Assembly: GCF_019649055.1 (NCBI RefSeq) | Contig: NW_026570406.1 | Coordinates: 111,413 to 175,412, forward strand | From: Paramacrobiotus metropolitanus | Taxonomy: Eukaryota; Tardigrada; Eutardigrada; Parachela; Macrobiotidae | DNA: 64,000 nt | Reading direction: 5' to 3' | Shown: positions 1 to 41,089 of the stretch, piece after piece | How positions within the stretch are numbered: position 1 is the first letter of the stretch | Layout: each line of letters starts with the position of its first letter | Program-made: the position numbers and the translations under genes | Notes under the pieces: generated by a model | The model's input: the letters and a program-made list of their open reading frames with translations, nothing else | Databases searched by the model: none | Told to the model about the DNA's origin: nothing

Positions 1-4
1 GCCC

Positions 5-823: not shown

Positions 824-831
824 TCCCACCG

Positions 832-1593: not shown

Positions 1594-1609
1594 GAAGATT
1601 CCGATAACA

Positions 1610-2065
1610 ATGTCGGATAGCAGCGAAGATGAGGAGAACGCGGACAACATCGACTCCGACGACTCCATGCACCAAAAGGCAGCGGCACCTACGAAGGGAT
1701 CTATACCGAAACGAGGTAGATCGCCGGTAAAGCAGATTTCGCCGACTCGATCAGCATCCCAGCCGACTAAGCTGCCAAGTCAACCGACGACTGAGAAACC
1801 ACCTAGGTTCTCACCTCGGAACACCCCAACGAAACCAAAGAAAACCGAAGAAGCAATGGATACAACATCCCCTTCGGAAGCGCGAGTCGGAATTACGGTC
1901 GAAACGTCACCACAAAGGGACGAACCGACCTCCGTTCACTCTGGTCCACGTCTAACAATAGACGAGTCTCGAACGAACGAGTCGACGACCGAGTCGGTAA
2001 CATACCGACCAAACGGAGTACGGCCAAGGAGAAACCACCTCAAGACTCGTCGCGGAATTTCATGA
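1610..2065 (+). pseudogene. Element ORF B, second segment
   Basis: This segment continues ORF B after the +1 shift near 1,595. It is low-complexity and probably disordered: an acidic start (MSDSSEDEE), then Ser/Pro/Thr-rich sequence with SPVKQISP, RNTPTKP and MDTTSP, which are matched in element 2. The matching frame is lost near 2,030-2,045, and the homologous residues (EFHDD, then DLTRLEQDV and RRASIVGNT) continue in another frame at about 2,045-2,210 before shifting again into the frame of the 2,236-5,040 segment. Element 2 is continuous here, so these are lesions in this copy and not separate genes. Confidence 0.55.
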
Positions 2066-2235
2066 CGACCTAGCCTTACAACACGTAAAGGACTTGACGA
2101 GGTTGGAACAGGACGTCTGCATCGACATGGCGTACCCAGAGGATAGGGAACTCTGGCATTCGCTGAGAATCCGACGTGCCAGTATAGTCGGAAATACCAC
2201 GGAAGCTCGGCGACCACGACCGACTTACCGAGAAG

Positions 2236-5040: not shown

Positions 5041-5381
5041 ATCCATCAAATCACCGACATGGACATTTACCGAAGGAACGACCGACCTCGGCACAATCGA
5101 CCGAGTTGGCCGACTCGCACCAAGCAAGTCGGCTCGGGTCGCCAGAAGCGCCTACACGGGAATGAGGAAACGCAGAACGCGTTGGGAGAGGGGCATAACC
5201 GACCTCCTCCCATTGACACCACATAGGCGTCATCGACCAACAGAAGTCGACTTACCTCATTAGACGACCACAAAGGCGTCATGGACCAGTTCGAGAACCG
5301 ACCTGGCCCGACCGTAGTAATCATAGGGTGTAAATTATAGGATGCAACCGAGAAACGGTTTGCTGACTTTTGTTTTGACAG
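5041..5381 (+). promoter_or_regulatory. ORF B-C gap: three stem-loops and a splice acceptor
   Basis: This gap has no ORF. It holds three hairpins: 5,214-5,232 (arms TGAC.C / G.GTCA, loop CACATAG), 5,233-5,250 (TCGAC / GTCGA, loop CAACAGAA) and 5,263-5,280 (GACG.C / GCGTC with one bulge, loop CACAAAG). Element 2 has hairpins at the matching places with quite different but still paired arms. The gap ends in a pyrimidine-rich tract and AG at 5,380-5,381 (TTTTGTTTTGACAG), conserved in element 2 as TTTTGTTTTAACAG. This is a likely 3' splice site for ORF C. Confidence 0.65.
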
Positions 5382-7585
5382 ACTCGTACGGAAGAGCCCC
5401 GAACGGAAGCCTTCACGGTGGACTGCCAACAGTGCATGGATAACGCGACGAGGGACAACAACAGAATGCCCTGCGCGTTGTGCATCGTATCCTTTACGAA
5501 CGAACGAATTTCCGGCACCGGAGCGCAACACCGTGCTCAGGCGGCGGCACTTTACTTAAATGTTGTCGCTGGCAATTTGAGCGCATACCGGTACCTGGCC
5601 GGCAGAGAATACCTGATTAACCAACTGGAGTCATATGAACAGGACAATCTGGCTACAATTCAGCGACAACGAGCTCGCGACCCGAGATGGGAAGAAACTC
5701 GACCACCAGTCCTAACAAATAGGCTGTTCGAGTACCGTCAGATGCTGGACCTGCAACGTCAACTTGACGACCAGAAGAAGATAAAGGAGGTCGATAGGAA
5801 GATCGCCACAATGCGAGTTCATCCACCACCGACCGATTTTGAACCGGAAATAAAGATTCGGGTACAGACACCCACACAGGGTCTCCCGACAGTCGGAGAA
5901 TTAACTCCCACAATACGCGATGTTTTTGTCGGAGATCCGAACCGACCGATGACCGGCGCATCTATAACGATGATGATGAATATGCCGGATGGAACTCAAC
6001 AGCCAGTTACTTTCACACCGGCAACTCAGGAACAGTTGATGGCAATCCCACACAGGGCAACGCCAGTGGTCACACAGGCCCGTCCAACTGTTCCTCAGCA
6101 GATTCCCCAGCCCGGAAATCGGACTCAATCGGCGGCTCAACAACAGCAACGCCGATCCAGCAAGAACCTTGCAGGATATGACCTTCGACATCGGATCGGC
6201 CCAGTTGATCTTCGAGACAAAATCGAATCCCAACGAGCCGTTATCCGTGAAGCTGGAAAGGAGCCAACCAGAGCCCCACCAGTGAAACGAACCGGATCTG
6301 GAGAAACGGGAATCGGACTTACGGTCGACTTAACAAATAGGTCGAAACGTAATTTTGTCCCACCCGAACAGCAGCCGGAAGCGCAACAGGTGGAACCGGC
6401 GGCCGAAGTCCAAGCTGAACCAGCAGCTCAACAGGAGCAGATGGACGTTGATGTAGCCGATCAGATGGCACAACTGCCACAAGTAGAAGTGCCGATCCGA
6501 GAAGATCCTCGTTACGACCGCGCTCGACAACAAGGAATCGAGGTCGTTATGCTACACCCCACCGAACGGACAAACCACATTATGAATGTCATGAATTACG
6601 AGGAACGGAACCGACCACAAATCTGGCGGATGGTAGAAAACCTTCGTCAATTCCTCGTCCGATCCGGATATCAGACGCTGTTTGAGCAGCATCAGTGGCG
6701 ATCTGACTTCAACATGAACGCGCACACAGCGCCGAATGTCGAACACCCATATACACGATCGAATGCATTACCGTCGATGACCGACCCGGTTTTACTGAAC
6801 GTGCCCCTGTACAGCCCGGACGGAACACGTGCGAGCCAACTAGGAGCTCGGGAATACTCCCATGACGAGTTGGAGAGTATTGCCCAGTTTGTCATCACGG
6901 ACGCACACCCAGCCTTTGTAATCACCGCGGCTCGGGCAGCACTGGACTTAACCCAGTATCTTCCAGAAGGAGAAGTCGACATGGCCCAAGACGGAGTCAC
7001 GGCATTTCTGCGATTTATCTTCGCAGCTCGACTTGGCAATTATTACTGCCATTACACATTATACGGCTTGTACCAGAACGAGATGATACCAGCGGCTGTG
7101 GAGACCCTCGTAGCCCAACTCGGCACACCGATGAGAAGTGTTATCCTAGCTGTCTGGATGCGTGACTTGCTGTACACCCACGAACGGTATGCGACAAAGT
7201 ATGCCTTTCGTGAGGATCACATAGATCCCAGCGACGACGATCCCAGCGACGACGGTTTATTAGCTGGTACCGTGAAAAGAAGACTCTGCCTAGCGGATTT
7301 AACTCGTCGCCCTACGAACCTTGGATGTCGGATGACATAGCACCTGGCGTACGACCATATGCGTTGCGACTCCGAAAACAAGCGGCTAAGGAATCGAGGA
7401 AGAGCAGGGCGGAGCGCCCAGGCCAAGAAACGGATGAGACTGACGAGATGTCTCAGCGGAGTGGCCCGGCGACTTGCAAACCAAGGGACCCAAATATACG
7501 GCCACATAACCGACCTGGCCCGGACGATGACGAAGAAGAAGATTACTTCGGCGGCGACAAACCCGTCGAAGTCCCACTCAGTTAA
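5382..7585 (+). CDS. Element ORF C, Cys-motif protein, probably spliced
   Basis: The frame opens directly after the acceptor AG at 5,381, and PRTE followed by a C-X2-C-X12-C-X2-C motif (Cys from about 5,424) is conserved with element 2. No ATG precedes the Cys motif, so the start codon probably comes from an upstream exon. After the Cys motif come a helical region (YLNVVAGN, then ISAYR in element 2 or LSAYR here), a Gln/Pro-rich middle, and a conserved helical C-terminal domain (AQFVITDAHPAFV, ARLGNYYCHY, LVAQLGTPMRSV). A frameshift at about 7,253-7,258 moves the tail into another frame. That tail holds MSDDIAPG and an acidic end (DDDEEEDYFGGD) that also ends element 2 ORF C, finishing at 7,585. 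Family not recognised. Cys spacing suits a zinc-binding site. Confidence 0.6.
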
Positions 7586-7810
7586 GATCGAGTTCCCACA
7601 CTGGAACTCGATCCCCCATTGGAATAACTTCAAGCAGGCATTGCCGAGAAACGGCACGGTCGAGAACCGACCTTCCGACTGAGAAACAGTTTAGCTGAGA
7701 AACAGCGCTGTCGAGAACCGACTTCGGAATGGACACTTCTCTTTAGTTCTTTTTTTTGGAAAATGACCAACCATGTACGCGGCGGACGTCAACGACGATT
7801 TTGCCAGAAA

Positions 7811-9051
7811 GCCGACTACACAAGTCGGCCGGATTCTTTGGTCGGACCCGGAAACGCGTGGTTAGACCCGGGTATTTCGGCTCTTTCACCGTACCGGTAC
7901 GTCCCCCAAGGAATCCCCTGGAACCAACTGGGCAACCGACCCCAGTTCCCCAGTTTGGCAAAGACAGATCGTAACCACATCTGCTAACAAAGCAGATCGT
8001 CAACCACGTTCTGCGACCATCGGAGCCAACAGAAGCCCCAACCCGCGTTACATGGAGATTACTCCGGCCAACCGACTCCGGAGAAGAAACCGAGAGGATT
8101 ACGCTAACATGGCGCGGAACACGACGCTGCGCGCGTTCCACGCCATGTTTGCCAAGCACCCGTGGCCAACTTCGGAACCGGGTAGCCGAGCAGCCTTCAC
8201 CATTGTAAACAGCGGAAATCCCTCGGCCGAGCCGCCAACAGTGCAGGAAGACTCGGATTTGACTAGGTACAGGAGCCGACCACAAAGGTCGACTTCGTAC
8301 TTTGCCCATAACTTGGAGACATAATGGATACTGCTGCGCAAGTCGACCACAAAGGTCGGTTGTGCAAGCCGACCACAAAGATCGGTTTTGGAGACCCAAA
8401 CAGTTCGACCCGCAACGATGCAGACCGTTAAAACCACGATTCGCTACCTTTAGACGACCACAAAGATCGACTGAGTATGGTAGCCGACCGACAGAAGTCG
8501 ACTATGGAGAATGGATGGAAGCTGGCAGTAGTCACGTGACAATTCAACCGGATTCTCCGTTTGAATCCAGACCTACAGGCTCTGTACCTGGAGATCAACC
8601 GCAGTCTCCCCCGGACGACATCGGGTAAACCAGCCGATTCACCGGTGACCACGACTACGCGCGTCCTCGAACGTGCTGCCATTCCCTGAAGAGGAACAGC
8701 GACGGTGATTTGGATACTGGTGTACCAACGACTCCGCCGCGACCTGCTTCCCCATGTCTCCAATGGAACATCCTAGGCGGACCGAGTTAGAATACTTGAT
8801 CTGCATCTCCTTAACGAACCCCGATGACGATGACCACCTGTCCGCAACAGTACCGGCCAGTCGGTCTTCGTCAGCGGCAAAGAAAAATTTCCCCGCGGAC
8901 GTGAGTCGTCTACCCCCAACAGAAGCGGCTAGGCGTCACAGGTTCGCGACAAAACAGAATGGAAGAAACGGATTTGACGACCTCAGGGACTTGCATGTGC
9001 ATGAAGTTTAAACCAAAGAGCTCGGCTCGGCAACCGGGGCCACAAAGACCC
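7811..9051 (+). repeat. Stem-loop family, element 1 downstream set
   Basis: This is a dispersed set of small hairpins. Typical form: CGAC, loop CACAAAG, GTCG. Members: 7,811-7,829 (GCCGAC / GTCGGC, loop TACACAA), 8,277-8,291, 8,344-8,358 (with an outer TGCGCA / TGTGCA stem), 8,369-8,385 (CCGA / TCGG, mismatched closing pair), 8,455-8,469, 8,485-8,500 (loop CGACAGAA, outer TAG / CTA) and 9,037-9,051 (GGG / CCC). The hairpins are shared with element 2, with changed stems. They read best as RNA structures in the element transcript. Confidence 0.6.
8052..8324 (+). CDS. Element ORF D, short conserved ORF (90 aa)
   Basis: This short ORF starts at ATG 8,052. Its first 50 residues (ITPANRLR, REDYANM, RNT.LR.FH, HPWPT) are matched by translation of element 2 near 27,200-27,320 on the minus strand, with several synonymous changes, so it is probably coding. 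The second half is not conserved. Its DNA also folds: CTCCGG / CCGGAG at 8,062-8,083 and a strong hairpin at 8,109-8,147 (CATGGCG / CGCCATG outside, GGAAC / GTTCC inside). Function unknown. It could be the 3' exon of a spliced product. Confidence 0.4.
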   Translation: MEITPANRLRRRNREDYANMARNTTLRAFHAMFAKHPWPTSEPGSRAAFTIVNSGNPSAEPPTVQEDSDLTRYRSRPQRSTSYFAHNLET

Positions 9052-10849
9052 TTAGCGTTGTGAGTGAGCGCAGTGCATGATGAAACGCCAGTCAATCGGC
9101 CAACAGATGCCAAGGAACCTCTACCTTGCAAGACTCTGCGACCCGGAAGCAAGTTATTCGGATTGACCGACCTCAACAGTAGCTCGGATCCGACCTGGAG
9201 TTTACGTCAGAAATCACAGAAGGAACGGAGTTGTGTTGCCGAACATCCCTCTGCCAGTCCGAACTGACCGAAGGATGTCCTGACACCAAGGACCCGGCCA
9301 ACTGTAGCCGAACGCACAGAACTCCTAAAATGAAGTCGACAACCATCAGATGGAGGTCGGAAGTAAGCGACAACAAGTCGGAAAATCAACCAGAAGTACG
9401 AAATCGACCTCCTAGTGGAAGAATTTAGCCTTTCGTCGGATAAAACACAAAGTTTTTCTGACTTGAGGAAGTCGGAAAATAGCCGACCTCCGAACTTGGA
9501 CATGGATATCCGACCTCAAGTTGAAGTCGGAAGTGACCGCACAGAAGTTGGAAGGATACGACAACAAGTCGGCAAAGGCATTTAGAAGTCGAGAATCGAC
9601 CTCCTAACGGAAAAATCCGACCTTCGAACGGATGAAGACTCAGTTCATCCGACCTTCCGAAGCCGACCACAACCAAATACAAGTCGGAAATCGGCAACTT
9701 ATTCAACATGACGGAAGAAGAATGACAACTGTCTGCGGTGGATGAATTCGACTTGAAGGAACTGTTTAGCCCCACATGGGCATGTTATTGCAGGTTAACC
9801 CTAGTCGACCACCGACGGATAGGATGACCGACCTCGACAGTAGGTCGGACAACAACGGCACATTGGATAGAAGTCGACCGGACACTTCCATCGATGAAAC
9901 TCATGAATCCCGACCGGACCTTCGAGCCAGTTCGACTCGGATTACTTCAAAACCGGGCTCGTGGTAGCAGATTGAACGGTTGTAACCGACCACTTTTTGA
10001 ACGGAACTGCTGTACATGACGACCACACAGGCCGCATGACTCACATACAGCTTTTTCCGACCTGGACTTCAAGAATTCGGAACATAGCCGAATTTCCCCA
10101 GCCGCCGGTCGACTTACCGGTAGGCCGACCTTGGTCAAACCGACCTTCGTCCTATTCCCCCTTCAGAGAGGATGCTTCGGCATTTGCAACCGCAACAGTG
10201 CCTCTCTATCCCTGACGGACGGACACGAGTCGGAAGTAAGTGTTTAACCGTGCTTATCCGACCTCGGTGAATGTAACCGGTTACGACGGGTAACCCGGGA
10301 ACCGATGCCCCGGACCCAACTTACCGGATGAAAGTGGACAGGAGACCCCGTGGAGACTCAACTGCCCCGTGGACGTCATCCTAGTCGGAATAGGACCCCC
10401 GGACAGATTTTTGCATTTTTTTAGCATTTCTCCTAACAAACGGAATTGTATTTTTCTAGTTCGATCTCTTTAACAGATCTGTTTTGTAACCCCCTTTGCT
10501 CACTGGAATTGTGATTAAACTTTATTTCATACTTTCGCGCTGTATACAACTTTCATTACATTTTTCCTTCACATTGTTCTCCGTTGCCAACAGAAGCAAG
10601 AAGCCAGCCAACAGAAGCACCACCGGTCCAACGAAACGCCCGAGCGGCTTCCGGATTTTTCGGCCGTGAGTGGCTTCCACTCATGGGTTCGGAAGTGAAG
10701 AAGGGACGGTCGACCAGACACCGGACTCCCACTGCCAGAGGACGCGTATCAGCGACCCCACATTGGGTCCGACTGGAGAGTTGTGCGGTACTGGTGCGGT
10801 ACCGAGTCGGAGCATCCTTCGCAGGAGCTCGGATTCCCGCCCAGAGGCA

Positions 10850-11284
10850 TGTCAGAGGCACATGACTGCGCCTGGTGCATACGGCCCACCATGGACGTAT
10901 TTGCACTCACGCTTGCCATATCGCCTCTCTCGCTGTACGTACGTGTGCTGCTGCACTGCACTCATATCCGCTGAAGCGGATATACGCAGCGCACACACTG
11001 AGCATACTTGCTCTCTCGTTCCTCTCTCGCGGTATGACTCAGCGTTCATACGCTCGCGTTGGATTGAGTCCAGTCTGCGCATCATCACACAGCTGATGGC
11101 ACACAGCACGTGCTTGCCGCCAGTTGCTTCTTTCACGCCTTGGCGAACGCTCAAGAGCTTTTTCTAGCATTCACTTGCTTAGCCATCAGTGCTTTGTTCT
11201 TGCATTCCCTGCTATTACGCAGCATTGTTCCTTTATTTGTACAATAAAGCATCACTCGTGATCTCCTCGCGCTTGCCTGTTACA
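10850..11284 (+). repeat. LTR-like terminus of element 1
   Basis: About 435 bp, starting TGTCAGAGGCA and ending TGTTACA, with TG...CA ends. It matches 23,440-23,888 in inverted orientation over the whole length. It contains an AP-1-type TGACTCA at 11,035-11,041, CT-rich tracts, and a poly(A) signal AATAAA at about 11,243, roughly 40 bp before the end. No clear polypurine tract directly precedes it. The partner LTR of this element lies outside the window, so boundaries rest on the comparison with element 2. Confidence 0.6.
11240..11250 (+). terminator. Poly(A) signal in the element 1 LTR
   Basis: AATAAA in the context TTTGTACAATAAAG. The same context occurs in the element 2 terminus (reverse complement near 23,470-23,482). 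It probably directs 3' end formation of the element transcript. Confidence 0.55.
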
Positions 11285-18780: not shown

Positions 18781-18878
18781 TGGCTGGATAGTTCTGAGCT
18801 TCCGGTTTCCACAAAAGATTTGCTGCGCTCGAGGCAGTTATCACACAATAACATCACTCAACACTCGGAAATGGAAGT

Positions 18879-22815: not shown

Positions 22816-22887
22816 CTGTCGAACATTAAGGAGAAAGACAGTTAGAAACGGCTCGCTAAGAAAACAGGCGTGCGTTGTGCGTTCCAA

Positions 22888-23439: not shown

Positions 23440-23888
23440 TGACAGAGAAATGCAGAGGGCTCCCAGATGCCTTTATTGTACAAATAAAGTGGAGCAAATA
23501 CCGCGTGATTGCGGGAGAAAAAGACAACAAAGCCAATGTCTGCAAGAAATCAGCAAGTCAGGTTGCTGCGAGCGAGTTCTAGCGCGTAATGAGACAGTGT
23601 AGAGAAAGAAGTGCTGGCGGCAACGGCGTCACGCTGCCCAGACACACGGAATGTGAGCGCGCAGACTGGACTCGTATCCAATGCGAGCGTATATGCGCTG
23701 AGTCATACAGCGAGAGAGAGGAACGAGAGAGCAAGTATGCTCAGTGAGTGCGCCCGCGGTGGATCCGCTAGGCGGAGAGTGCATTGCAGCCACTCACGTA
23801 CGTACAAGAGAGGGCGAATCAGCATGTGTGCAGTGATACGCATGCGCAAAGTGGCGTATCTATCACGCAGGCTGTCGTGCCTCTAACA
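23440..23888 (-). repeat. LTR-like terminus of element 2
   Basis: About 449 bp; on the minus strand it starts TGTTAGAGGCA and ends near TCTCTGTCA. Shared with the element 1 terminus: CT-rich tracts, TGACTCA (TGAGTCA on plus at 23,699-23,705), the poly(A) signal in GTACAATAAAG (reverse complement near 23,472) and matching ends. No second LTR is present because the 5' part is lost. Confidence 0.6.
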
Positions 23889-24853
23889 TGCCTCTGGGCG
23901 GGAATCCGAGCTCCTCTGAGGATGCTCCGACTCAGTACCGCACCAGCGTCGCACCTCTCCGGTCGACCCATGTGGGTTCGCCGGTACGCGTCCTCTTCCA
24001 GTGGGAGTCCGGTGTCTGTTGACCGTCCCATCCTTCACTTCCAGATCCATGAGAGGCAAGCAACTCACGGCCGCAAATCTGGAAGCCGCTCGGGCGTTTC
24101 GTTGGACCGGTATCGCTTCTGTTGGCGGGCATCTTGCTTCTGTTGGCTCGCGGAGAACGTAAAAGAAAAGTGTAATGACGGTCAAACAGCGCGAAATAAA
24201 AAGTAATAAAGTTTAATCACAATTCCAGTGAGCAAAAAGTAATACAAAACAGATCTGGTTAGAGATTCTAAGTAAAATACAATTCCGTTTGTTAGAAAAT
24301 GTATAAAAATACTAAAAAGAGATCTGTCCGGGGGGCTTATTCCAACTAGGATGACGTCCACGGGTCTTGAGTTTCCACGGGGTTTCCTGTCTAAATGCAG
24401 TCCGGTATATCAGGTCCGGGGCGTCGGTTCCCGGGTTACCCAACGTAACCGGTAATTTCGTCTGAGGTCGGGTAAGCACGGCTGACACTTACGTTCGACT
24501 CATATCCGTCCGTTCCGGAAGAGAGGCACTGTCGCTGTTGCGAATGCCGAAGCATCCTCTCTAAACAGGGGAGTTGGACCGAGGTCGGTTGACCAAGCTC
24601 GGCCAACTGGTAAGTTAACCAGCGGTCAGGGAATCCGGCTAAGTCCCGAATTCCAAAGTTCGGGTCGGACAAAACCGTGCTTGTGTCATACGACTTCTGT
24701 GGTCGCCAAGTGGTAATGCCGATAAAGTGTGGTCGGTTAAAAACCGTTAAATCTGCTACCACGAGCCTGGTTAAGACTTTTTCGAGGCGAACTGGCTCGA
24801 AGGTCCGATCGGAATTTGTTGCTCCATCCATCCGCTGATGGTTCACTGGTGTC

Positions 24854-25515
24854 ATCCGACCTGTTGTCGGTTGGGATGGATATCCGACCTGAGGTCGGTC
24901 ACAATGTTATCCGACCTAAGGTCGGTGATAACGCACCTCCATGGTCGACCTCGGTAACTCGTGTTATGTTAGGCCCATATGGGGCCACAAGTCCCGTTAG
25001 GTCGAATTCGTCCATTTCGAGCCGCGCGTGGTCGGTGGTAATGTTGTACGACCTGAGGTCGGTTACCACGTGACTAGTCCGTTCGAAGGTCGTATTTCGG
25101 CTAATCCGCTGATGTTCTAGGCGAATCCGAACGATCCGGCATTCCTAACCGACTTCTGTGGTCGGTTGGACCGGTTATCCGACCTGAGGTCGGTGATAAT
25201 GTTATCCGACTCGAGGTCGGTTATTCCAAATCCCAGGTCGATTGAGGTCGGTTTCTTCCGTCCGGAAGTCGTTTTCCGTGAGCATCTTGGTTGGCGTCTC
25301 CATCCACCGACCTGTTGTCGGTTACTTCACGTGTCCGACCCGAGGTCGGTTGCAACGTTATCCGACCTGAGGTCGGTGATTCCATAATTCCGTGTTCAAC
25401 CGAGGTGAGCTACGGTATGCAGGCTCCAAGTGGAGCCATACAAGTCCGTTTCGGTCGAATCCTCCTCATAACCGACCCGTTGTCGGTTACTCAACTTTAT
25501 CCGACCTGAGGTCGG
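24854..25515. repeat. Cluster of 15-bp palindromes, CCGACCTGAGGTCGG type
   Basis: About ten copies in 660 bp, for example at 24,883-24,897, 24,911-24,925, 25,179-25,193, 25,206-25,220, 25,335-25,349, 25,362-25,376, 25,472-25,486 and 25,501-25,515; variants have TAAG, TCGAG, CCGAG or TGTTG centres. Several are followed by GATAATGTTAT. Spacing is irregular. The nearest element 1 counterparts have longer loops (for example near 9,824-9,846). Confidence 0.7.
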
Positions 25516-26568
25516 ATATAATGTTATCCAAACCAAGGTCGGTGGTTCTTCATCCAGGTCGGTTCCGTCCGTTGAGTGGTCGGTTTAAGCCTCTGGGCGT
25601 CCGTCCGGACTCCGTAAGGTTATTTTGGAGCAGTAATCCGGTTCGTGCCTCTAACATGCCCTGGTTCGGGTCGAGAACTTTGCCTCTGGACGGGTCCGAG
25701 TTCCGTCACGTTCGGCGATTCCATGGCGTCTGTTGGCCATCCAGCATGCACTATTGGTCGCTTGTGGCATCGAGGGACTTCTGTGGTCCCACTCCACAAG
25801 ACAGACTCTTTGGTTTTAGACCGGCGTACAGTTCTCACGCCTAGGCAGCGTTGTGCCTCGGGCCCCGACTTATGTCAGACTGCCCGTTCCCATCCCCATG
25901 CAGCATGCAAACTGAGGTAGAATCAGATCTTCACTTCCCTGGTTGGAGTTTCTTCGTTCCGTTCCACGAACCTGTGACGCCTTACCGCTTCTGTTGGGGG
26001 AAGACATCACACGTCCGTGGTGGGGTCTGTTTGAGGGGTGCAGTTCGCGACTACTAGCGCGTCTGCCTAAGATGTTCCCTTGGTACGTCCTGGGGAAGCG
26101 GGTTGGCGGAGTCACCTCGTCTTCGGATATCATAAGAGTTGTCAGATGTTGGCCAAACCGTCGGGGGCCCCTTCAGGTAAAGGCAGCACGGTCAAGCCGC
26201 GCGTAGTCATGTCACCGTTGAATCGGTTGGTTTATCCGATATCCTCCGGGGGAGACTTCGGTTGGACTCCGGGTACAGGTTCCTAGTTGAGAGCCTGTAG
26301 GTCTAAGTTCAAACGGAGAATCCGGCCAAACTAAAATCGTCATTCCCGCGGTCTGCGGTTACCATTACCGACTTCTGTGGTCGATAAAGGTAAACTATTA
26401 AATAAGGCACTCCGATTTCTGACTTCCGTATACTTCCTTCAGGTCGACGTCAGTTGACATTTCGCGGTAACATCTCGCGGGTCGGCTACCGTTGGTAGGA
26501 TCGACTTCTATGGTCGATTCTAGGTAGCATGTCGTAGTTGACGCGATCCGTTTTGCTGTGGTCTTACT

Positions 26569-27320
26569 TCCGGAGTCCGGTTGCCGGAGTAAGCCATGGG
26601 GTGCTTTGCCAACCAAGCTTGACCTGAAACACGCCGCAATGCCGTGTTTCGAGCCATGCTAGCGGAATCCTCGCTGGTTTTCTGCTCCGGAGTCCGGTTG
26701 CCGGAGTATTTTCGCAGCTTATTCCTCGGATGTAAAGTCGAAACTTCACCGACTTCTGTGGTCGGCTAAGTTATTATACTGATTGGTTTCGCTCATCTAC
26801 CTCGGGGATGGTTGACTTCCGTGGTCACCTGAGGTAGTAGATCGTAGGGTCCAAGTTCTACCTTGAGGTTGGTTGACTTCCGTGGTCAACGAAGGTTGTG
26901 GATCGTGGTTCTGTGGCACGGTCTGCGCCGCTTCCTTTCTTAGTTTAGCTATCTCGGGAATAGTCAACTTCTGTGGTTGACTGAGGTAGCAAGACGTGGT
27001 TAAAGTCGCGGTCTGCGGAGTTTGATCTTTGGGCGGGAATCCGGTTCTTCGCTCCTGACTTTAGTTAACTCAATGCGCCTAGTCGTAACAGGTCGGTTTT
27101 GACTTCTGTGGTCAATTCCGAACCATGTGACATTCCGTCCCGACGAGGATACCAGTGTCTGCGGTGACGAAAGTTACTGGTCGGTTACCCGGTCCTAAAG
27201 TCGGCCACGGGTGCCAGGCAAACACGGTGTGAAACAAGCGCAGCGACGTGTTTCGCACCATGTTAGCATAATCCTCTCGGTCCATACTCCGGAGTCGGTT
27301 GGCCGGAGTAATTTTCTTCG
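26569..27320 (-). repeat. ORF D hairpin module, two copies
   Basis: The module is CTCCGG...CCGGAG followed (minus strand) by an AACACG-containing hairpin. One copy lies at about 27,225-27,310 and translates like element 1 ORF D (NRLR, REDYANM, HPWPT). The other at about 26,620-26,706 is frame-broken but keeps the hairpin GAAACACG / CGTGTTTC (26,626-26,650). A further CTCCGGAG-type hairpin lies at 26,570-26,592. Confidence 0.5.
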
Positions 27321-27779
27321 GTAGCAGAACGTGGTTCGCGATATGCTATGTTAGCAGGCCGGGGCGTCTGCTGTCTCCGGTCAAAGCAGATGTGGTTGTC
27401 GATCTGCCCATGCCATGCTGGGGAACTGAGGTCGGTTGGTCAGTTCGTTCCAGGGGATTCCTTGGGGGACGTCCCGGTAGGGTGAAAGAACCGAAACACC
27501 CCGGTCTTGACCACGCGTTTCCGGGTCTAACCGAAGAATCCGGCCAACTTATGTGGTTGGCTCTTCTGGTATGTTCGTGGTTCACGTTTGCTGTTTTGAA
27601 TCTGTAAGAAAAAATTAAAAGAAACTATCCGTTCCATGTATCCACGTCGTTTCTCGACGATGCTGTTTCTCAGCTGGGCAGGTTCTCCGCCAGGTCGATT
27701 CTCGACTCTGCCGTTTCTCGGCTTGATGTCCCATCCTTACTGTTGAAGTTAGGGACCCAGGTTCCTATGTGGGAACCTG

Positions 27780-29923
27780 TTATCCCAAAGGGAATGAGAT
27801 TTGCGGGTCTCCGCCGAAGTAATCCTCGTCATCTTCGTCGTCGGGTTTCGGTGGTCGACCAAGGCGCCGGAAGACTTCAGGCTTACACGTTGCTGTTACC
27901 TGCCCACTTTGTTGTGAGGTGTCTTCCTGACCGGGATGTTCTGCCCGCGCCTTCTTGGCTTTCTGGACCTTCCTGCGGAGTTTGTGTGCGTTAGGTACTG
28001 CACCGGGTGCCAAGTCGTCCGACATCCCTTGTCAGTACGGTCTGGAGGTGAATCCGCTAGGTAACGCTTTTTCTTCTCGGCACCACTTCACGAATTCAGC
28101 CGCATCATCGTCGGGATCTTTGAAGCCCTTCCGGAAGGCGTACTTGGACGCATGCCGTTCCTGTATGTAAAGGAGGTCGCGTAACCAAACTGCCATGGTG
28201 ATGCTTCGCATGGGTGAGCCAAGTTGTGCGACGACCGTATCCAATTCTGGTGGTATATGTCCAGTACGGCGTGCTCCACACAGCGCGTAGTGACAAAAGT
28301 AGTTGCCCAACCTTGCTGCGAAGGTATACCGTAAAATGGTCGCATTTCGATCCTCCGGTCCTGGCTCTTCTTCCGGCAAGTACTACAGTAAGTCCAGGGC
28401 CGCTCGAACTGCTGCGATGACAAAGGCCGGGTGGGCGTCGGTGATGACAAATTGAGCCACGCTCTCCAATTGATCGCGCGAGTACTCTTGAGGTCTGAGC
28501 TGACTTAAACTCGTCCTTTCCGGAGTGGACAAAGGTATGTCCAACAGTGCCGGGTCAGTCACCGATGGCAAAGCGTTTGCTCGGTTAGTCGGGTGGTCGA
28601 CGTTAGGGTGGTCGTTCATGTTGAACTCGCCCATCCAATTATTTAGCTGAAATCAAGTTCGAAATTCAGATCGGATGAGGAACTGACGCAGGTTTTCTAC
28701 CATCCGCCAAATGTGTGGTCGGTATCGTTCCTCGTATCCCAAAGTGTTCATGATGTAATTTGTCCGTTCGTTCGGATGTGGCATAACGACCTCAACTCCC
28801 TGTCGTCGGGCGTTGTCGTAGCGAGGGTCGTCCTGACTTGGGACTTGCACTGTTGGCATCATAGCCATCTGATTTGCCACCTCAACGTCCATTTCTTCAG
28901 GTTTATCTGCCAGTTCCGCCATGTGGGCTTCCGGTTCCTGTTGTTGTTCAGGTGGGGCGAAATTCCGTTTCGACTTGCTAGTTGAGTCGACGACCTGTCC
29001 CGTACTTGTCTTCTCCGGACTTGACCGTTTACCAGGTGAAGGTCTGGTCGCTTCACTGTTACCCTGTCCGCCAGAGGCTCGTCGTTCCTAGATTCTTATC
29101 GAGCATCATGTCCGAGCCTGTGTCGGATTTCGTGTTCGGCCAATGGTCTAGTGGGTCGGCGCTACTGTTGAGTCGTCGACGGGGCAACTGGTTGTGCCGA
29201 AGGTCCGGGTTGGGGAATCTGCTGGGCAACCGATGGCTGGGTTTGTGTGACCACTGGGACGACCTTCTGTGGGATCGTCGCCATCTGTTCCTCCGTTGCA
29301 TGGTAAAAGGTGACCATTTTCATGGTTCCGTCGTCCTGTCGCATCATCATTTGGATTGACGCGGTTTGTAGAGGTCGGTGAATGTCTCCGACTATCACTT
29401 CCCGTACGTCATGAACCACTTGTTCCGAGTCGGAGCGGCCTTGTGTGTGCTGCTGCAACCGAACAGTAATTTCTGGTTCATGTCTCGTCGGAGGCGGGTG
29501 AACTTTCATTTGGGCAATCCTTTCGTCGACTGCCTTAGGCGACTCCCGCTCTTCTCTCTGACGTCTCAGGTCCTGTTGGTGACGGTATTCCAAAAGTCTA
29601 TTGGTCAAGGTCAGTGGTACTGTGTGAGTCCATCCGGGGTCGGAAGCACGATTTCGTTGGATTTGCGACAAGTGGTCTTGTTCATAGGCTCGTAACTGGT
29701 TAATCAGGCGTTCGCTGCGAGCTAAGCGTCGATATGCGCTGATGTTTCCAGCGACGACGTTTATGTACAACGCCGCTGCTTGCATTGCATCACGACGTCC
29801 GACCTGTGGGGTATGTTCATCCAAAAAGGAAATTATGCAGTTCGCGCAAGGGAGTCTGTTGCCCTGCGGAGTTGAGTTTTCTCTGCAATGTCGGCAGTCC
29901 GTCGTGTACGATTCCGTTCGCGG
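27780..29923 (-). pseudogene. Element ORF C, element 2 copy (decayed)
   Basis: It opens after the conserved acceptor (AG at 29,925-29,924) with PRTE and the C-X2-C-X12-C-X2-C motif, then AALYINVVAGNISAYR. Homology to element 1 ORF C runs to the end (MSDDLAPG and an acidic tail with DYFGGD near 27,810), but the frame is interrupted by stops or shifts near 29,160, 28,650, 28,380 and 28,030. The conserved C-terminal domain (AQFVITDAHPAFV, ARLGNYFCHY, VAQLGSPMRS) is nevertheless well preserved, indicating past selection on protein. Confidence 0.65.
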
Positions 29924-30279
29924 CTGTTAAAACAAAAGTTAAACGACCCGTTTCTCGGATTCGTTTTATCCTATACATTTACACCCTATGATTACAACGG
30001 TCAGGCCATGCTGGTTCTCAAGCTGGTCCAAGGCACTTATGTGGTGCCTGTTGGAGTAAATTGGACAGTCTGTTTTGTCCATGGAAGAGGTCGATGACCA
30101 TAAGTACTTATGTGGTACTTATGAAGGAGGTCGATTCTGCGGCTCCTCATCCTGGGGTGTCCGTATTCGTCGATTCCACCCGGTTCACCTGGAGAAAGTC
30201 AGTCGGCTCCTTTTGTTGCTCCGAGGTCGGTGGATGCTTCGGTAAGTGTCCGTATCGATGTGTTGATGGTTTAAGAGCC
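29924..30279 (-). promoter_or_regulatory. ORF B-C gap of element 2: two strong stem-loops
   Basis: Stem-loop 30,099-30,123 has 9 perfect pairs (CATAAGTAC / GTACTTATG, loop CACATAA on minus). Stem-loop 30,031-30,049 has AGGCAC / GTGCCT with the same loop. Their flanks (TCATCGACC, TGGACCAG) align with those of the hairpins at 5,214-5,232 and 5,263-5,280 in element 1, whose arms differ. A splice acceptor with pyrimidine tract ends the gap at 29,924. Confidence 0.7.
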
Positions 30280-33200
30280 TCATATCGCTGACCTTCCCGA
30301 GTCTGGTTGATGCCGAACCTCTTCTGGAAAAATCCCCTGTTGAGGACGAAGTCCGTCATCGCCGAGCGCGTACATTTTTCCTTTCCATGTCTTGGGGTCC
30401 GGTTTGGGCTCGAATTTCGGGTCGATTAGCTGAGGTTTCTGTGCCGACCATCTGAATTCGAATCGTGCCACGAGCTGATGTTGAATCTCGCTGCGGGTCA
30501 GTTCTTCTGGATGCCACGACATACACGCTTCGATGGCATGTACCCAACCTTCGTAAGTGGTCGGCGCCGGGTCGCGTTTTTCCGGTAGAAATTCGTAATA
30601 CATCCGCTTGAAGCTGGTATACGTCCGTATAAGCTTGCTTTCGTTGTAACCGAGGGTACAGTAGCGGAATACGTTGCTTTGGCTTAGTCGCCTCCAACCT
30701 CCACCAATTTCGCCGATTCTGTGGTGCCTAAGGAGTTGAAATGCGATCTTCGGTGTCGCAAACTTTGGTCCACAGGTCGCTAGGGCCTTTAGAGCCGCAA
30801 AGGTGTACATCCATCCCGGATCGTATTCCGAGACACGTGGGGGTAAGGACTGAGCCAGTTTGGTAGCCACTGTTGGGTACTTGACATGTACAGTCGGTAA
30901 TCTCGGGATCTCATTTGGTAGGAGTTCCTGAGTATCCTCGTTCCATTCTGTGAGGAGTTGATTCGGGTCGGAATCCGGTGTTAGCCGTACTTGTTGACGG
31001 TAATTCTGAGGGACGTAGACATCACCACTATCTTCTTCCATCGGCTCATCAGCTTCGTTACTGTTATCGGCCGGCGGGTCCTTCTGGCCCTGGGAAATCT
31101 CCGGTTCACCCTGTTGTTGCGGTGCCGAAGCCGGTGGGGGTTGATTATCGTCATCGTCCTCATCCTCTTCTTCATCTTCGTCCTCTTCGTCGGAGGGTGT
31201 TTTCCCCTTGTTCTTCGCCGACTTCTTCGTTGACTTAGCCGGTTTAGGTTGACTCTTCCGTGGAGTCTTACCTTCCGGAGCCGGTGAAGTTTCCATTGGT
31301 GAGGCCGGTGGGAGAGATTGCGTGTCTCTCGCAGCAAAACGTCCTGTTGCGTTCCGACCTGCCTTCGCCGCGCTCGCTCGTCCCGGCGCTGGGGCGGTGT
31401 TGATGTATGTAACCGGTTGATGCGGTATCCGAGGTCGGTTAGTCGGTAGTCGTTTCTGTGACGACATACCGAACGCTCGTGCAATGTTCAACATGTCCGC
31501 CGCCTCTCCGGATGGTTGTTCATCCGTCTCGCTGTATTCTTCCACGATCATTTCGGTGCCTTCAGGAGAGCGCTGTAGGTTGACGAAGGACATCCGGAGG
31601 TTGAATTCGCGTCGTTGCTGCTCCGGTATGAACCTAGGTACGGTGAACCGAAGTGGTAGGTCACGTTCCGCATTTGTCGTTTGTAGGGAAAATTCCGCCA
31701 CGATAGTTGCGACGACGGGTCGTAAGAGGTCCATTATGGCATTGATGTTTCCCTGACTGTTCTCGTACATGAAGCTGAAAATACGGGCAATGTGCAGTAG
31801 GGAGGATCCGCGAGGGTTTCTTCCGTATCCGATGCATCTGACGATTCTCGTCGGAGGGTCATCTTGATTTCTGGCTGCGGCACTTTTGAGCTTCTGGATG
31901 ATATCGGGTGAGATCAGCTCGGCGATCCGTCCCCATTGTCGGTGGACCGCTACGGCCAATCCGAAGTCCAGGGCCCATGCCACTATTGCCATCATGAGCT
32001 TCTGTGAGGTCCGACCTACGATCCTTAAGTTGGTCGAAAGGTCGCGCACCAATGACTGATGCACATCTCTGCCTTCCGTTCGGGCGTTCTTGACGCTTCG
32101 GACTATTTCGACGTGAAGTCGAACTGTATGAAATCCGACTGGTCGATCGCCAGGTTGAGCGTCGGGTAACCGCTGACGTGCATCATCAGGGGCTGGCCAG
32201 TCGGAAGCGTCAGTGTCTTCTTCGTGACTCCATTCTTCGTTCCGATCGCCTTTAACTCCTTCGTATGGATCGGCTTCTCCATGGTCGGAGATTTTGTCAT
32301 CGGGTTCCGAAGGTTTTTCCGATTCATCGTCCGAGTCTTTCTTGGACGTAGAAGGTTTCGGTTGTTTGGCAGTTGGCTTAGACGTCGGCTTAGACCTTTC
32401 GTGTGGTCGTTGCGCTTCTGTTTTAGTCGCCATGGTACCTGCGCTAGCAATCAGTTCTTGCATCCGTATTTTGGCTGCTTCATAGTCGTATTCCTTCTTG
32501 GCGTTCCCCTTCTTGTCCGGCTTATGTGGGCCAGCGTCGGAGGTGTCAAGGTCGTCTGAGGATTTATGTCGTTTCGCTGGGTTAGATTTCGGCGTTTTGA
32601 CTGATGGATTCGACTTCGGATTGGTCGGTCTTTTTGGAGGTTCCTTGGTTGCCTCCTTTTCGGCTTCCTTTCTGACTTCTTTTTTAGCCTTCTTCTTTTC
32701 CCTCCGTGATAACTTAGCCGTGTTAGCCGAGTTAATTACTTTCGAGTCCAGTAATGGTTCGTCTTGGACTTGCACAGAAGGTTCCCGTACTGGTTGGGGG
32801 TTCTTCATTTTGACGACCAGTTGACGTATTGTCGTGGAGGTCGTTTTCGAATCCGGTGCGAAGAGTTTCTGCCGAGTCGGTGCAGCCTGTTGTTGTGCCG
32901 CAGGTCGGGTCTTCTCCGCTCGGAATCGTTCTCCCATTCGTTTCATGACCTCTGCCATCCTTTGCGTAAGGCGTTCGTGTTCCTTACGGACTTCATCGGT
33001 GTTTCCAACAAGGCTGGCACGACGTGACTTCAGTGAGTTCCAGAGCTCTTTGTCCTCTGGAAACCCGATATCCACGCTCACGTCCTGTTCTGACCGAGTC
33101 AGGTCCTGAACGTGCTTCAAGGCTGGGTCGTTATGAAATTCACGTGAGAAGTCGTCAGCTGGTTTCTGCTTCTTCTTACTTCTCTTGCCCGGGGCTGTTG

Positions 33201-33969
33201 CCGGCCCGTTCGTTCGAGATTCGTCAATGACCAGCTTGGCTGGTTCCGAGGTCGATTCGTTCTGGGATGCAGGTCGGACCTCCTTTGGAGACGTCGTGTC
33301 CATCTCCTCCGGGGTCTGTTTTGGTTTAGTCGGAGTATTCCGGGGCGTGAACCTACGTGGTTGTTCATTCGGAGATTGACTCGGCATCGTTGCCGGTTGA
33401 GACGCTGCCCGGTTCGGTGAAATCTGTTTCACCGGAGATCTACTCCTTCTCGGTGTTGATTCTGCCGATCGCGATCCGTATGATGACCTGGAGCTTGTGT
33501 GTGCATCCATAAGCAAAGTCTCTTGCCACGTTTGGTCGTCATCATAGGTCGGATCATCTTCGATCTGAGCACCCTTTTTGTAGTTGTGGTCAGATTCGTC
33601 GCTGCTGTCCGACATGACCCATCGAATCTTATCAGTGACTTGTTGTCCCCGTTGAGGGGCCATTTCCAAGGTGTAGGCGAAAGGGTTGATGCGAAGGTGA
33701 CGGAGGAGTTGGACTGGCTTGATAATAGCAGCATCCAACGGAAGCTGTCGTAATGCCTGTCTTCCGCACCTTACGAACACCAGTCGGCGTAGAGCCTTTT
33801 CCCTGTCCTGGATTAACGCATATATCCGTTGACCGAGTGCCTGTTGCTCGTCAACGGATAACTTTCCTAGCCTTATTCCCTCTGTTAGGTGAGCTTCATT
33901 GAGTATCCGTTCCAGGTCGTTGTTCTTAGCCTGTCGGACTAACTTCTTGTGAACTCCGGACGTGAACAC
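30280..33969 (-). CDS. Element ORF B, main open part, element 2 copy (1,229 aa)
   Basis: The longest element ORF in the window. It covers the helical block (VHKKLV, LRRLV), the disordered middle (SPVKQISP, RNTPTKP, MDTTSP), the conserved helical domain (RLHVEIVRSV, AVHRQWGRIAEL, RCIGYGRNPRGS, FNLRMSFVN), an acidic run with DDDD, and the C-terminal domain (WMYTFAALKALA, RTYTSFKRMYYEF, YEGWVHAIEACM). It shows that the three ORF B pieces of element 1 were once one frame. Frameshifts lie just before its start (near 33,960) and near 30,365, after which FVLNRGFFQKRF continues in another frame. Family not recognised. Confidence 0.65.
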   Translation of the reverse strand: MFTSGVHKKLVRQAKNNDLERILNEAHLTEGIRLGKLSVDEQQALGQRIYALIQDREKALRRLVFVRCGRQALRQLPLDAAIIKPVQLLRHLRINPFAYTLEMAPQRGQQVTDKIRWVMSDSSDESDHNYKKGAQIEDDPTYDDDQTWQETLLMDAHTSSRSSYGSRSAESTPRRSRSPVKQISPNRAASQPATMPSQSPNEQPRRFTPRNTPTKPKQTPEEMDTTSPKEVRPASQNESTSEPAKLVIDESRTNGPATAPGKRSKKKQKPADDFSREFHNDPALKHVQDLTRSEQDVSVDIGFPEDKELWNSLKSRRASLVGNTDEVRKEHERLTQRMAEVMKRMGERFRAEKTRPAAQQQAAPTRQKLFAPDSKTTSTTIRQLVVKMKNPQPVREPSVQVQDEPLLDSKVINSANTAKLSRREKKKAKKEVRKEAEKEATKEPPKRPTNPKSNPSVKTPKSNPAKRHKSSDDLDTSDAGPHKPDKKGNAKKEYDYEAAKIRMQELIASAGTMATKTEAQRPHERSKPTSKPTAKQPKPSTSKKDSDDESEKPSEPDDKISDHGEADPYEGVKGDRNEEWSHEEDTDASDWPAPDDARQRLPDAQPGDRPVGFHTVRLHVEIVRSVKNARTEGRDVHQSLVRDLSTNLRIVGRTSQKLMMAIVAWALDFGLAVAVHRQWGRIAELISPDIIQKLKSAAARNQDDPPTRIVRCIGYGRNPRGSSLLHIARIFSFMYENSQGNINAIMDLLRPVVATIVAEFSLQTTNAERDLPLRFTVPRFIPEQQRREFNLRMSFVNLQRSPEGTEMIVEEYSETDEQPSGEAADMLNIARAFGMSSQKRLPTNRPRIPHQPVTYINTAPAPGRASAAKAGRNATGRFAARDTQSLPPASPMETSPAPEGKTPRKSQPKPAKSTKKSAKNKGKTPSDEEDEDEEEDEDDDDNQPPPASAPQQQGEPEISQGQKDPPADNSNEADEPMEEDSGDVYVPQNYRQQVRLTPDSDPNQLLTEWNEDTQELLPNEIPRLPTVHVKYPTVATKLAQSLPPRVSEYDPGWMYTFAALKALATCGPKFATPKIAFQLLRHHRIGEIGGGWRRLSQSNVFRYCTLGYNESKLIRTYTSFKRMYYEFLPEKRDPAPTTYEGWVHAIEACMSWHPEELTRSEIQHQLVARFEFRWSAQKPQLIDPKFEPKPDPKTWKGKMYALGDDGLRPQQGIFPEEVRHQPDSGRSAI

Positions 33970-34381
33970 TGACTTTGTTGCCGAGGTCGGTTTCTGTGAC
34001 TGACCCGACTGTGTTCCATCCGTTGGGGTCGAGTTGCTCCTTCGTTCGGACTGGTGGCGGTGAGAAGAGACGTATTCTTGGACCTTTGTCGTCCGAGTCG
34101 TCTTTCGTTTTTAACTTCCTCACAAATTTAGATGATCCCGGTCCACCAGGTTGATGGACTGTGCGACCATACAGCGTACGTTCACCCGTAGTAGGTTCTT
34201 TCTGTGAGAGCCCAGGTAAAGTTGCCGGTCGAGTAGGTCGGACAATCGGCTTCGGCTGGCCATCCTGTGGGATTGCTGGTGTTTCTGAAGTGTCTATGTC
34301 TACCTGCTCAAATGCTCCGACCTCGAGTTCGTTCCCAAGTGGCCGTGCTTCATCCATTGGTTCATCTTGTTGAACCTCCAA
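33926..34381 (-). pseudogene. Element ORF B, N-terminal piece, element 2 copy
   Basis: It matches the N-terminus of ORF B in element 1 (QDEPMDE, TLPGLSQ, then RTKEQL). After RTKEQL the frame is lost relative to the FTSGVHKKL residues that begin the large ORF, and a segment present in element 1 is shortened. The first ATG is at about 34,360; the frame is open to 34,381 and overlaps the end of ORF A by about 20 bases. Confidence 0.55.
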
Positions 34382-34909
34382 TGGTTTGACAGGTTGGCGC
34401 CTTAGTCTTCTTCGCGGGAGTTGATTGTTTCAACTTGCGTTCCGCTTCCTGTTGCTTCCGTTTATAGAAGTCTTCCGCGAAGCTATCTATTTTAACTTTA
34501 AGAATCCGTAGCCGATCCTGGTTCCTGACGGTCCGTTGCGTCTCAGGTCGGAGAATGAACCGGACCTCCTTGGCGTTGTTCTCCAAGTGGCCCAGGTTGA
34601 TGTCTATCTGCCAGAACTGCGGAGTTTGCGGGTCGGTTGAATCTTGTAATTGGTAAAGTTCACCAATCAACTTGTCCGCTGTCTGCAGAGTCAGTTGGAT
34701 TTCGTTATCCGGTATGGATTGTGGAACCGCGAAAGGGTCCTGGTAAGCCGCTGTGCCTGCGCGTGGTGGCGGGATTGAGGCGTCAGACGGGCTACGTGTC
34801 GACTGGATTTGTGTAATCTGAGATCGCCGATCCATTTCCTTTCGTTCTTGGTCACGGTCCCGTTCTTCTATGTAATCTCGGACTCGCGTTTTCAACCATG
34901 AGGAGGTTC
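34362..34909 (-). CDS. Element ORF A, C-terminal part, element 2 copy
   Basis: It starts within the tandem array and has TSSWLKTRV, a Glu/Arg-rich linker, QIDINLGHLENN, RFILRP and the basic tail TPAKKTKA, as in element 1 ORF A. Reading frames through the array upstream are open, giving a 504-codon frame from 35,876, but most of that is repeat. Only this 180-residue part is supported as ORF A. Confidence 0.55.
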
Positions 34910-35874: not shown

Positions 35875-35880
35875 ATTTTT

Positions 35881-41016: not shown

Positions 41017-41089
41017 TTATGGAATCTCGTGAATCCGTACGAGTCTCATTTTCACTTCCGGGGCTGCTCCGCCAGCAGTGCATTGACTG

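Follow-up and report, generated by a model that had tools for sequence, protein, structure and literature searches.

Here we show that the sense sequence of giant Ty3/Gypsy-like long terminal repeat (LTR) retrotransposons of the tardigrade Paramacrobiotus metropolitanus carries a network of short hairpins, which lie in coding and non-coding parts and whose stems are kept by compensating changes. Two of these elements lie in the stretch of 64,000 nucleotides analysed here (contig NW_026570406.1, positions 111,413 to 175,412; hereafter the window): element 1 (family B) on the plus strand and element 2 (family A) on the minus strand. Members of one family share a conserved loop, and the preferred loop differs among the families, named A to E here. 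We suggest that the hairpins are probably read by a protein, which is strengthened by the family-specific loops and by a concerted change of loop closure between families A and B.

An earlier note on this DNA had counted at least 13 hairpins in the sense of element 2. All 13 are found on the minus strand, with the loops CACAGAA, CACATAA, CACGGAA and CATAGAA occurring seven, three, two and one times, as it stated. The second, outer stems that it mentioned are also present, e.g. GGTTCGG/CCGACCT around 27110. It placed the series at 24691..30123; hairpins do lie there, but this range is too narrow, as the series runs to 34216 and elsewhere covers the whole element. The hairpins of element 2 are listed below.

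24685..24711, minus strand: loop CACAGAA (at 24701), stem GCGAC/GTCGT; one relative has GGTGAC/GTCAC
25144..25170, minus strand: AACCGAC CACAGAA GTCGGTT (loop at 25160)
25769..25795, minus strand: GGGAC CACAGAA GTCCC (loop at 25785), outer stem GTGG/CCAC
26363..26389, minus strand: TTATCGAC CACAGAA GTCGGTAA (loop at 26379)
26496..26522, minus strand: ATCGAC CATAGAA GTCGAT (loop at 26512)
26744..26770, minus strand: GCCGAC CACAGAA GTCGGT (loop at 26760), outer stem AACTT/AAGTT
26807..26833, minus strand: loop CACGGAA (at ~26820), stem TGAC/GTCA of only 4 bp
26868..26894, minus strand: GTTGAC CACGGAA GTCAAC (loop at 26884)
26959..26985, minus strand: AGTCAAC CACAGAA GTTGACT (loop at 26975); relatives have TCGAC/GTCGA
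27094..27120, minus strand: TTGAC CACAGAA GTCAA (loop at 27110), with the outer stem named above
27539..27565, minus strand: GCCAAC CACATAA GTTGGC (loop at 27555); family B homologue GCCGAC TACACAA GTCGGC
30027..30053, minus strand: AGGCAC CACATAA GTGCCT (loop at 30043), between ORFs (open reading frames)
30098..30124, minus strand: CATAAGTAC CACATAA GTACTTATG (loop at 30114), between ORFs
31444..31470, minus strand: GTCGT CACAGAA ACGAC, coding region; family B homologue with loop CACAAAG

The similar set with the loop CACAAAG, described for element 1, is there as well, at 8277-8291, at 8341-8361 and at neighbouring places. Among the hairpins of element 1 are the following.

113..129, plus strand: CTCATC ACAGA GATGAG, coding
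3760..3774, plus strand: TCGTC ACAAA GACGA, coding
3811..3827, plus strand: CCGACA ACATA TGTCGG, coding
4737..4755, plus strand: TCCTTCA ACATA TGAAGGA, coding
6325..6345, plus strand: TCGACTTA ACAAA TAGGTCGA, coding
7811..7829, plus strand: GCCGACT ACACA AGTCGGC, 3' region
8341..8361, plus strand: AGTCGACC ACAAA GGTCGGTT, 3' region

The stems covary strongly. The rows were picked by the loop alone and the stem was not used for the choice. In 112 CACAGAA rows with unique flank, positions 1-5 outside the loop are Watson-Crick paired in 61-77%, against 29-52% expected from column composition. With one random copy for each of 83 CACRNAA sites, positions 1-6 hold 249 Watson-Crick pairs, while permutation gives 134.7 (sd 10.2; z 11.2); CACAGAA-only sites (n=42) give z 9.0. 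Paired cells make up 69.6% in family A and 43.2% in its shuffles, and the covariation score is 0.608 versus 0.214 (sd 0.027), with none of 500 shuffles as high and slid controls at 0.226 or below. The constant loop on compensating stems, which the earlier note had proposed, is thus borne out. Alignment A1 comprises all 52 of the 52 rows made, in 47 site clusters. Family B (52 of its 62 rows) has 74.2% of cells paired versus 47.9% in shuffles, and a score of 0.627 versus 0.182 (sd 0.022; 0/500 shuffles; slid controls at most 0.195). Seven of the rows left out overlap a kept window, and three (L027:8, L027:5960 and window:6) were dropped without strong reason. Since one register of overlapping pairs had been picked by hand, the count was repeated on all 62 rows, which gives 64.8% paired cells at positions 1-6 versus 39.2% (sd 2.3), with z 11.0 and 0/5000 permutations reaching this value. 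In alignment A2, MAFFT shifts one family B row by two columns. Measures of pair count and pair type do not separate the alignments from shuffles (496/500 and 69/500 in A, 138/500 and 236/500 in B); they are near saturation with 52 diverse rows.

Homologous sites display the changes directly: TCAAC/GTTGA versus TCGAC/GTCGA, GGCGAC/GTCGC versus GGTGAC/GTCAC, and GCCAAC/GTTGGC versus GCCGAC/GTCGGC. Among 41 rows with a stem change relative to the site majority, 21 retain a standard pair, eight of them through a double change. Genome-wide, the next pair around ACCACAGAAGT is G..C 299 times (7 in the reversed control), A..T 26 times (8) and T..A 28 times (16); the non-Watson-Crick A..C and G..T occur 7 (6) and 10 (7) times.

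The motif is abundant and lies almost wholly on one strand. ACCACAGAAGT occurs 96 times in sense and never in antisense in an early set of the element pieces, and the genome has 299 occurrences of GACTTCTGTGGTC and 7 of its reversed control. Family A pieces contain CACAGAA 179 times in sense, against five occurrences of its complement TTCTGTG. Over its whole length, coding parts included, the C5 element (27.4 kb, scanned in three pieces) bears 38 hairpins of at least 4 bp in sense and none in antisense; element 2 has 16 and none. Element 1 (22 kb) has 25 sense hairpins and one antisense hairpin of at least 5 bp. Host tests span about 47 kb. No CACRNAA hairpin of at least 5 bp is found there (0/39 and 0/37 words on the two strands), and a looser count in 47.7 kb gives 1 and 5 per strand by the family A criterion and 1 and 1 by that of family B. 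Motif hairpins are nearly absent from these host stretches and from the antisense of the scanned elements. Perfect hairpins of at least 6 bp number 24 at window 23650-28000 on the minus strand versus a mean of 6.5 in 20 shuffles. Host stretches also have them in some excess (39 vs 21.4, 80 vs 48.4), and these stretches hold no repeated loop of this kind.

A covariance model built from 52 hairpins has 28 matches at E <= 2 in the window. Element 2 on the minus strand accounts for 23, including the 18 best (E <= 0.1), of which three had been rows of the model itself; the remaining five fall in element 1 (four) and in host DNA (one, E 0.41). The covariance model R1 does well on family A and has six matches at E <= 2 in 15 other pieces. 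A single family D place accounts for three of these six: next to CACAGAA stands an A·A mismatch, followed by GTCGG/CCGAC or a variant. Rfam gives no match in the window at the gathering score.

The favoured loops are CACRNAA in A, ACANA in B, CAAYA in C, YAMC in D and GAAWGA in E. A loop scan without a preset motif is led in A by CACAGAA (z 15.4) and gives ACAAA (z 11.5) and ACACA (z 8.7) in B. The top words of C hold CAATA or CAACA (CCAATAG 7.2, CAATA 5.8, CAACA 5.1), and those of D hold AAC or TACC (AAC 6.8, CCAACG 6.7, CTACCG 6.5, TACC 6.1). In a pooled matrix of motifs and families the diagonal z is 22.4 (A), 14.6 (B), 8.2 (C), 7.0 (D) and 5.1 (E), the C, D and E motifs having been chosen post hoc from the data on which they are tested. 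Host values are -1.3 to 0.7 and off-diagonal values -1.7 to 1.8, save the B motif in A (z 12.7; its five full stems equal the permutation maximum), which is expected because CACRNAA contains ACRNA. Reversed motifs form hairpins in 0/93 words of A versus 143/363 for the motif itself, in 0/75 versus 11/83 of C and in 0/23 versus 6/32 of E. In B the values are 11/174 versus 30/278; ACACA reads alike both ways. A second family C copy has CGGCCC CAATA GGGCCG, apparently homologous to GGTCC CAACA GGGCC of the first.

The loop closure is switched in concert between A and B. Among X-ACANA-Y words with at least four outer pairs, family A has hairpins in 53/134 with C·A and in 1/25 with C-G, whereas family B has them in 20/56 with C-G, with no C·A hairpin listed. 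At 14 homologous places with an ACRNA loop, compared by eye, the closure in A is C·A at 12 and A·A at two; in B it is C-G at ten, T-A at two, C·A at one and a T·G wobble at one. Examples, A versus B, are ATCCC CACATAA GGGAT and ATCTT CACACAG AAGAT, GTCGT CACAGAA ACGAC and GTCGT CACAAAG ACGAG, GAGCT CACAGAA AGCTC and GAGCT CACACAG AGCTC, and CTCAT CACAGAA ATGAG and CTCAT CACAGAG ATGAG. Gene conversion could hardly spread a one-base loop change over unrelated stems, so a changed reader would be the simplest cause.

Selection at the RNA level is also suggested. With loop-gap rows and two family B rows excluded, A copies were compared pairwise at 15 sites. The difference is 0.159 for the flanks, 0.122 for the six bases next to the stem, 0.058 for the stem itself and 0.057 for the loop. 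Loop and stem thus diverge about 2.8 times less than the flanks, and the most variable loop positions are 4 and 5, as CACRNAA implies. Coding sequences of A contain 9 hairpins with the family's own loop and at least five Watson-Crick pairs, those of B 11, those of C one and those of D four. In 300 synonymous-codon shuffles, some of the ORFs overlapping, the means are 0.25, 0.44, 0.01 and 0.13 and the maxima 3, 4, 1 and 2. With the loop of any of the other three families, coding sequence yields 0 or 1 hairpins.

The partition function, run over 75 bases on each side of a hairpin, gives family A hairpins a mean pair probability of 0.92 (43/46 at 0.5 or above), versus 0.36 for other hairpins with 7-nt loops (83/236). 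The family B values are 0.91 (31/33) versus 0.37 (62/163). With flanks shuffled the mean goes down to 0.75 (A) and 0.87 (B), so the surroundings favour the hairpin. Scrambling of the loop letters changes it little, so these letters are not needed for folding.

The carriers of the hairpins are Ty3/Gypsy-like LTR retrotransposons, judging by the type of reverse transcriptase (RT), RNase H and integrase (IN), the LTRs, the target duplications and the domain order, all of which fit. This agrees with the LTR-retroelement context given in the earlier note. The features in the window are as follows.

23440..34907, minus strand: element 2, the 3' half of a giant family A Ty3/Gypsy-like LTR retrotransposon, in a copy that lacks gag-pol
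23440..23889, minus strand: 3' LTR of element 2, 91% identical to the 5' LTR of the C5 copy (L011)
30280..33969, minus strand: ORF of 1229 residues after pol, with no Pfam match, kept in families A, B and D
1..11284, plus strand: element 1, the 3' half of the family B copy G000:C186:100645-122696
10850..11284, plus strand: 3' LTR of element 1 (TG...CA)
5418..7340, plus strand: ORF of 640 residues, the last of element 1; sole database match LOC129596996 (Paramacrobiotus metropolitanus), 95%

Element 2 is 83-89% identical to pieces L012 and L013 over almost its whole stretch (blastn), and a domain search of the window finds no match to RT, IN or Gag. The C5 copy is 27.4 kb from LTR to LTR (LTR identity 95.2%) and has Pfam matches to RVT_1, RT_RNaseH, Integrase_H2C2 and rve, and for its protease as well. 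Its best matches among solved structures are Ty3 Gag-Pol 7q5b and RT 4ol8, and the order in L011-L012 is protease, then RT/RNase H, then IN. The C3 copy is 31.5 kb long (middle unread; LTR identity 99.6%). The full copy of element 1 is 22.05 kb long, with LTRs 99.3% identical. In all three copies checked the LTRs are ~435-462 bp long, end in TG...CA and are 95.2-99.6% alike, and 4-bp target duplications were read by eye as CCTT (element 1), GTTA and GTTT. Element 1 has Gag and post-pol ORFs (window 1-11284 with L009-L010), and no RT, RNase H or integrase match in the pieces covering the full copy. It is a young-looking non-autonomous 22-kb copy, which has probably moved in trans, since its LTRs are so alike.

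At least 147 RT matches occur in the 169.8-Mb genome. They were grouped by eye into families with identities to family A of 98-100% (A), ~88-93% (B), ~84-85% (C), ~79-83% (D) and ~69-71% (E), with few intermediates. A piece was placed in a family according to its RT group or to the resemblance of its 3' region; L020 is counted as A though the adjoining RT is only 82% identical (C10:438198).

With five families in one genome using different loops, the reader is probably element-encoded and not a single host protein. We hold with moderate confidence that the hairpins may be dispersed packaging or condensation signals read by Gag. An element-encoded RNA-binding protein would recognise the loop whatever the sequence of the stem. 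The likeliest reader would be Gag, which could bind through its low-complexity GRG or Q/N/G-rich tail and a single CCHC knuckle. Many sites along a long RNA would let Gag pick the RNA of its own family over that of sibling families. Gag would then condense the chosen long RNA into particles, as with the dispersed packaging signals of single-stranded RNA (ssRNA) viruses. Copies without their own RT or integrase might use the signals in trans, which element 1 fits. Gag itself is assigned from position, from the CX2CX4HX4C knuckle and from a sub-threshold DUF4939 match in A. In families A, B, C and E, which the comparison covers, the Gag-like ORF has a GRG or Q/N/G-rich stretch followed by a single such knuckle. 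The knuckle differs between families, and the C copy has a stop inside it. The hairpins may further amount to a self/non-self RNA code, where each family repeats its own loop in dozens of hairpins and this loop changes along with the element-encoded reader; the case for such a code is evenly balanced.

Several observations weigh against these suggestions. The argument for Gag as reader is one of domain make-up, and the Gag-like ORF of B has no Pfam match and that of A only the sub-threshold one; two AlphaFold models, of ORFs other than Gag, are too poor for use (mean pLDDT 52.7 and 32.5). The loop preferences of D and E are weaker than the others: the scan of E gives GAATGA 4.2, GAAGGG 4.0 and GAAAGA 3.0 versus 3.9 for the best host word, and the reversed control of D is 13/779 versus 23/780. 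To this is added the post hoc choice of motifs mentioned above. In a 4-kb check of the second C copy, hairpins of at least 4 bp stand at two of 16 loop words. Some hairpins of A or B lack a partner in the other family. Loop words are often stemless, five full pairs being formed by 59/219 unique-flank CACRNAA words in A. The outer pairs covary less at 13 CACAGAA sites closed by AC/GT (z 3.2), and the pair is broken in 20 of the 41 rows with a changed stem. Finally, all families come from one genome assembly and the copies are related.

The conserved post-pol ORFs are the second candidate reader after Gag. The same network could be read by the product of one of the large post-pol ORFs for nuclear export, translation, splicing control or reverse transcription of the very long RNA, a tentative alternative which we consider rather unlikely. 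Large ORFs without a recognised domain are kept in A, B and D, and the family specificity also indicates an element-encoded reader here. However, no RNA-binding domain is recognised in these ORFs and their fold models are unusable. To our knowledge, spread over the whole RNA is also atypical of known export elements. The large ORFs after the integrase (P0001, P0002, P0003 and L035:3443-5407) are conserved, and none of those tested has a Pfam match save an extensin-like repeat ORF. Residues 386-640 of P0003 are predicted, with low confidence, as all-helical, with the sole database match from the same tardigrade. A Foldseek search gave no match at E <= 0.001.

It is improbable that a host RNA-binding protein, or an RNA-decay or silencing factor, reads the hairpins or is blocked by them. 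Their presence in coding and non-coding parts alike would suit such a factor, but the five sibling families differ in loop, with little cross-use beyond the ACRNA core common to A and B, and the host stretches nearly lack motif hairpins.

Kissing loop-loop contacts, which might fold or dimerise the element RNA and which the earlier note had offered as one option, are very unlikely among these hairpins. Constant apical loops are a usual setting for kissing. However, the loops are not self-complementary, the complement word is rare (5 versus 179) and, of 26 (A) and 34 (B) words complementary to the loops, none lies in a hairpin of at least 5 bp.

We give equally little credence to a mutational origin without function, in which template switching during reverse transcription makes palindromes perfect and short repeats spread by copying within the element. 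Template switching can yield compensating stem changes, and the 3' region does contain genuine short repeats, e.g. CCGACCTCAGGTCGG, with five-base stems at only 4/21. Nevertheless, such a process does not hold a loop of 5-7 nt constant on unrelated stems or change the closure in concert at homologous hairpins, and it leaves the strand asymmetry, the low divergence of loop and stem and the context display unexplained.

A by-product of protein coding or base composition is negligible: the ORF1 hairpin CCGACCACAGAAGTCGG can read PTTEVG, yet synonymous-codon shuffles average 0.25 and 0.44 where A and B have 9 and 11 hairpins, and the same hairpins stand in the non-coding 3' region. Codon constraint, chance and composition are rejected or disfavoured by the synonymous shuffles, the hairpin shuffles, the permutation z and the motif matrix. 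ORF1 (L011:2241-4787) contains PTTEVG-like repeats, and since CCGACCACAGAAGTCGG can encode this peptide, one sequence may serve both protein and RNA.

Other palindromes and repeats accompany the elements. At window 24856-25548 on the minus strand, repeated ACCGACCTCAGGTCGGAT palindromes with the triloop TCA, TCG or TTA and few different stems make a second palindrome class beside the covarying hairpins. A third hairpin type, in families A and B, has CTCCGG, the loop CAACCGGACT or CCAACCGACT, and CCGGAG (window 26570-26706 and 27290-27310, minus strand; 8062-8090, plus strand). A CTTTATT...AATAAAG hairpin with an AATAAA signal lies near the 3' end in families A, B and D (window 11231-11249 and ~23478-23500; L035 ~7890). 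About 60 head-to-tail copies of a 15-bp unit fill window 34914-35872, where the reading frame of the element 2 ORF stays open, and the in-frame array goes on to ~35876; Pfam gives the ORF of tandem repeats at 34362-35876 an extensin match below threshold. A palindromic satellite (unit with AATAGCCAACTGGCTATTTTGCCGCA) brackets element 2 in opposite orientations at window 23010-23195 and 36894-37064. A DNA transposon with terminal inverted repeats was considered and rejected, as its arms at 23055-23195 and 36921-37063 are this satellite and the element ends in an LTR. F-box-like genes (four ORFs with F-box matches) adjoin the elements at window 17186-22887 and 38757-43594, and two rhodopsin-type G protein-coupled receptor genes lie at 57773-61847. 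A nematode host, to which the F-box and receptor matches seemed to point, was rejected, since the one protein match is to Paramacrobiotus metropolitanus.

The 5' packaging and dimerisation structures of retroviruses and Ty1 are likewise RNA hairpins that help to select RNA in a retroelement coding for Gag. The known structures of this sort are confined to a few local sites close to the 5' end. In the elements studied here, 25 and 38 hairpins of similar form are spread over 22 and 27 kb. For Ty1 RNA, kissing loops that initiate dimerisation figure in the title of one paper (PMC5454406). The statement of the earlier note that no such repeated loop is known in LTR elements agrees with our search, which found no report of such a hairpin family in the open-access library searched.

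Burro of planarians and Ogre of plants are likewise Gypsy-like LTR elements of 20-30 kb with extra ORFs (PMC6431247). The consulted parts of that review give extra domains and long LTRs for giant elements and describe no repeated hairpin code, and they count ribonucleoprotein packaging capacity among the limits on element size (PMC6431247). Unlike in Burro and Ogre, the LTRs here are of ~0.45 kb and the tested extra ORFs have no recognised domain. In stringent LINE reverse transcriptases an element protein also reads an RNA structure for self-recognition (PMC5135761); there it is a 3' UTR (untranslated region) stem-loop of non-LTR elements, and here a dispersed network.

The nearest known counterpart is the set of dispersed packaging signals in MS2, STNV, enteroviruses and hepatitis B virus (HBV), described by Twarock and Stockley. 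In the portions of PMC6281560 consulted, ssRNA viruses and HBV have many genome-wide stem-loops with a common short recognition motif and a variable remainder; further papers on such signals are PMC7612645 and PMC7793301. The same anatomy is found here, with many stem-loops sharing a loop motif along the element sequence. We note the matching anatomy and do not claim membership, as the coat-protein contacts of the viral signals come from experiment and the reader suggested here from sequence alone. If the suggestion is true, signals of the dispersed packaging type are not confined to viruses but exist in LTR retrotransposons too, and the five families that share one genome offer a natural specificity-switch experiment. 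The suggestion also bears on how retroelements distinguish their own RNA from that of relatives and of the host, on how elements of 25-30 kb stay mobile and on how such RNAs are handled. If the code is true, sibling families in one cell restrict packaging or processing to RNA of their own, that of RT-less relatives included, and such genome-wide, coevolving RNA tags would make for retroelement biology of a new kind. The hairpins are also a ready test set for a putative loop-specific RNA-binding protein. Gag-like proteins that have been repurposed might assemble in a similar way, as the authors of the viral work themselves suggest (PMC6281560). Unlike in the viral systems, the carrier here is an LTR retrotransposon, and its sibling families favour different loops within one genome.

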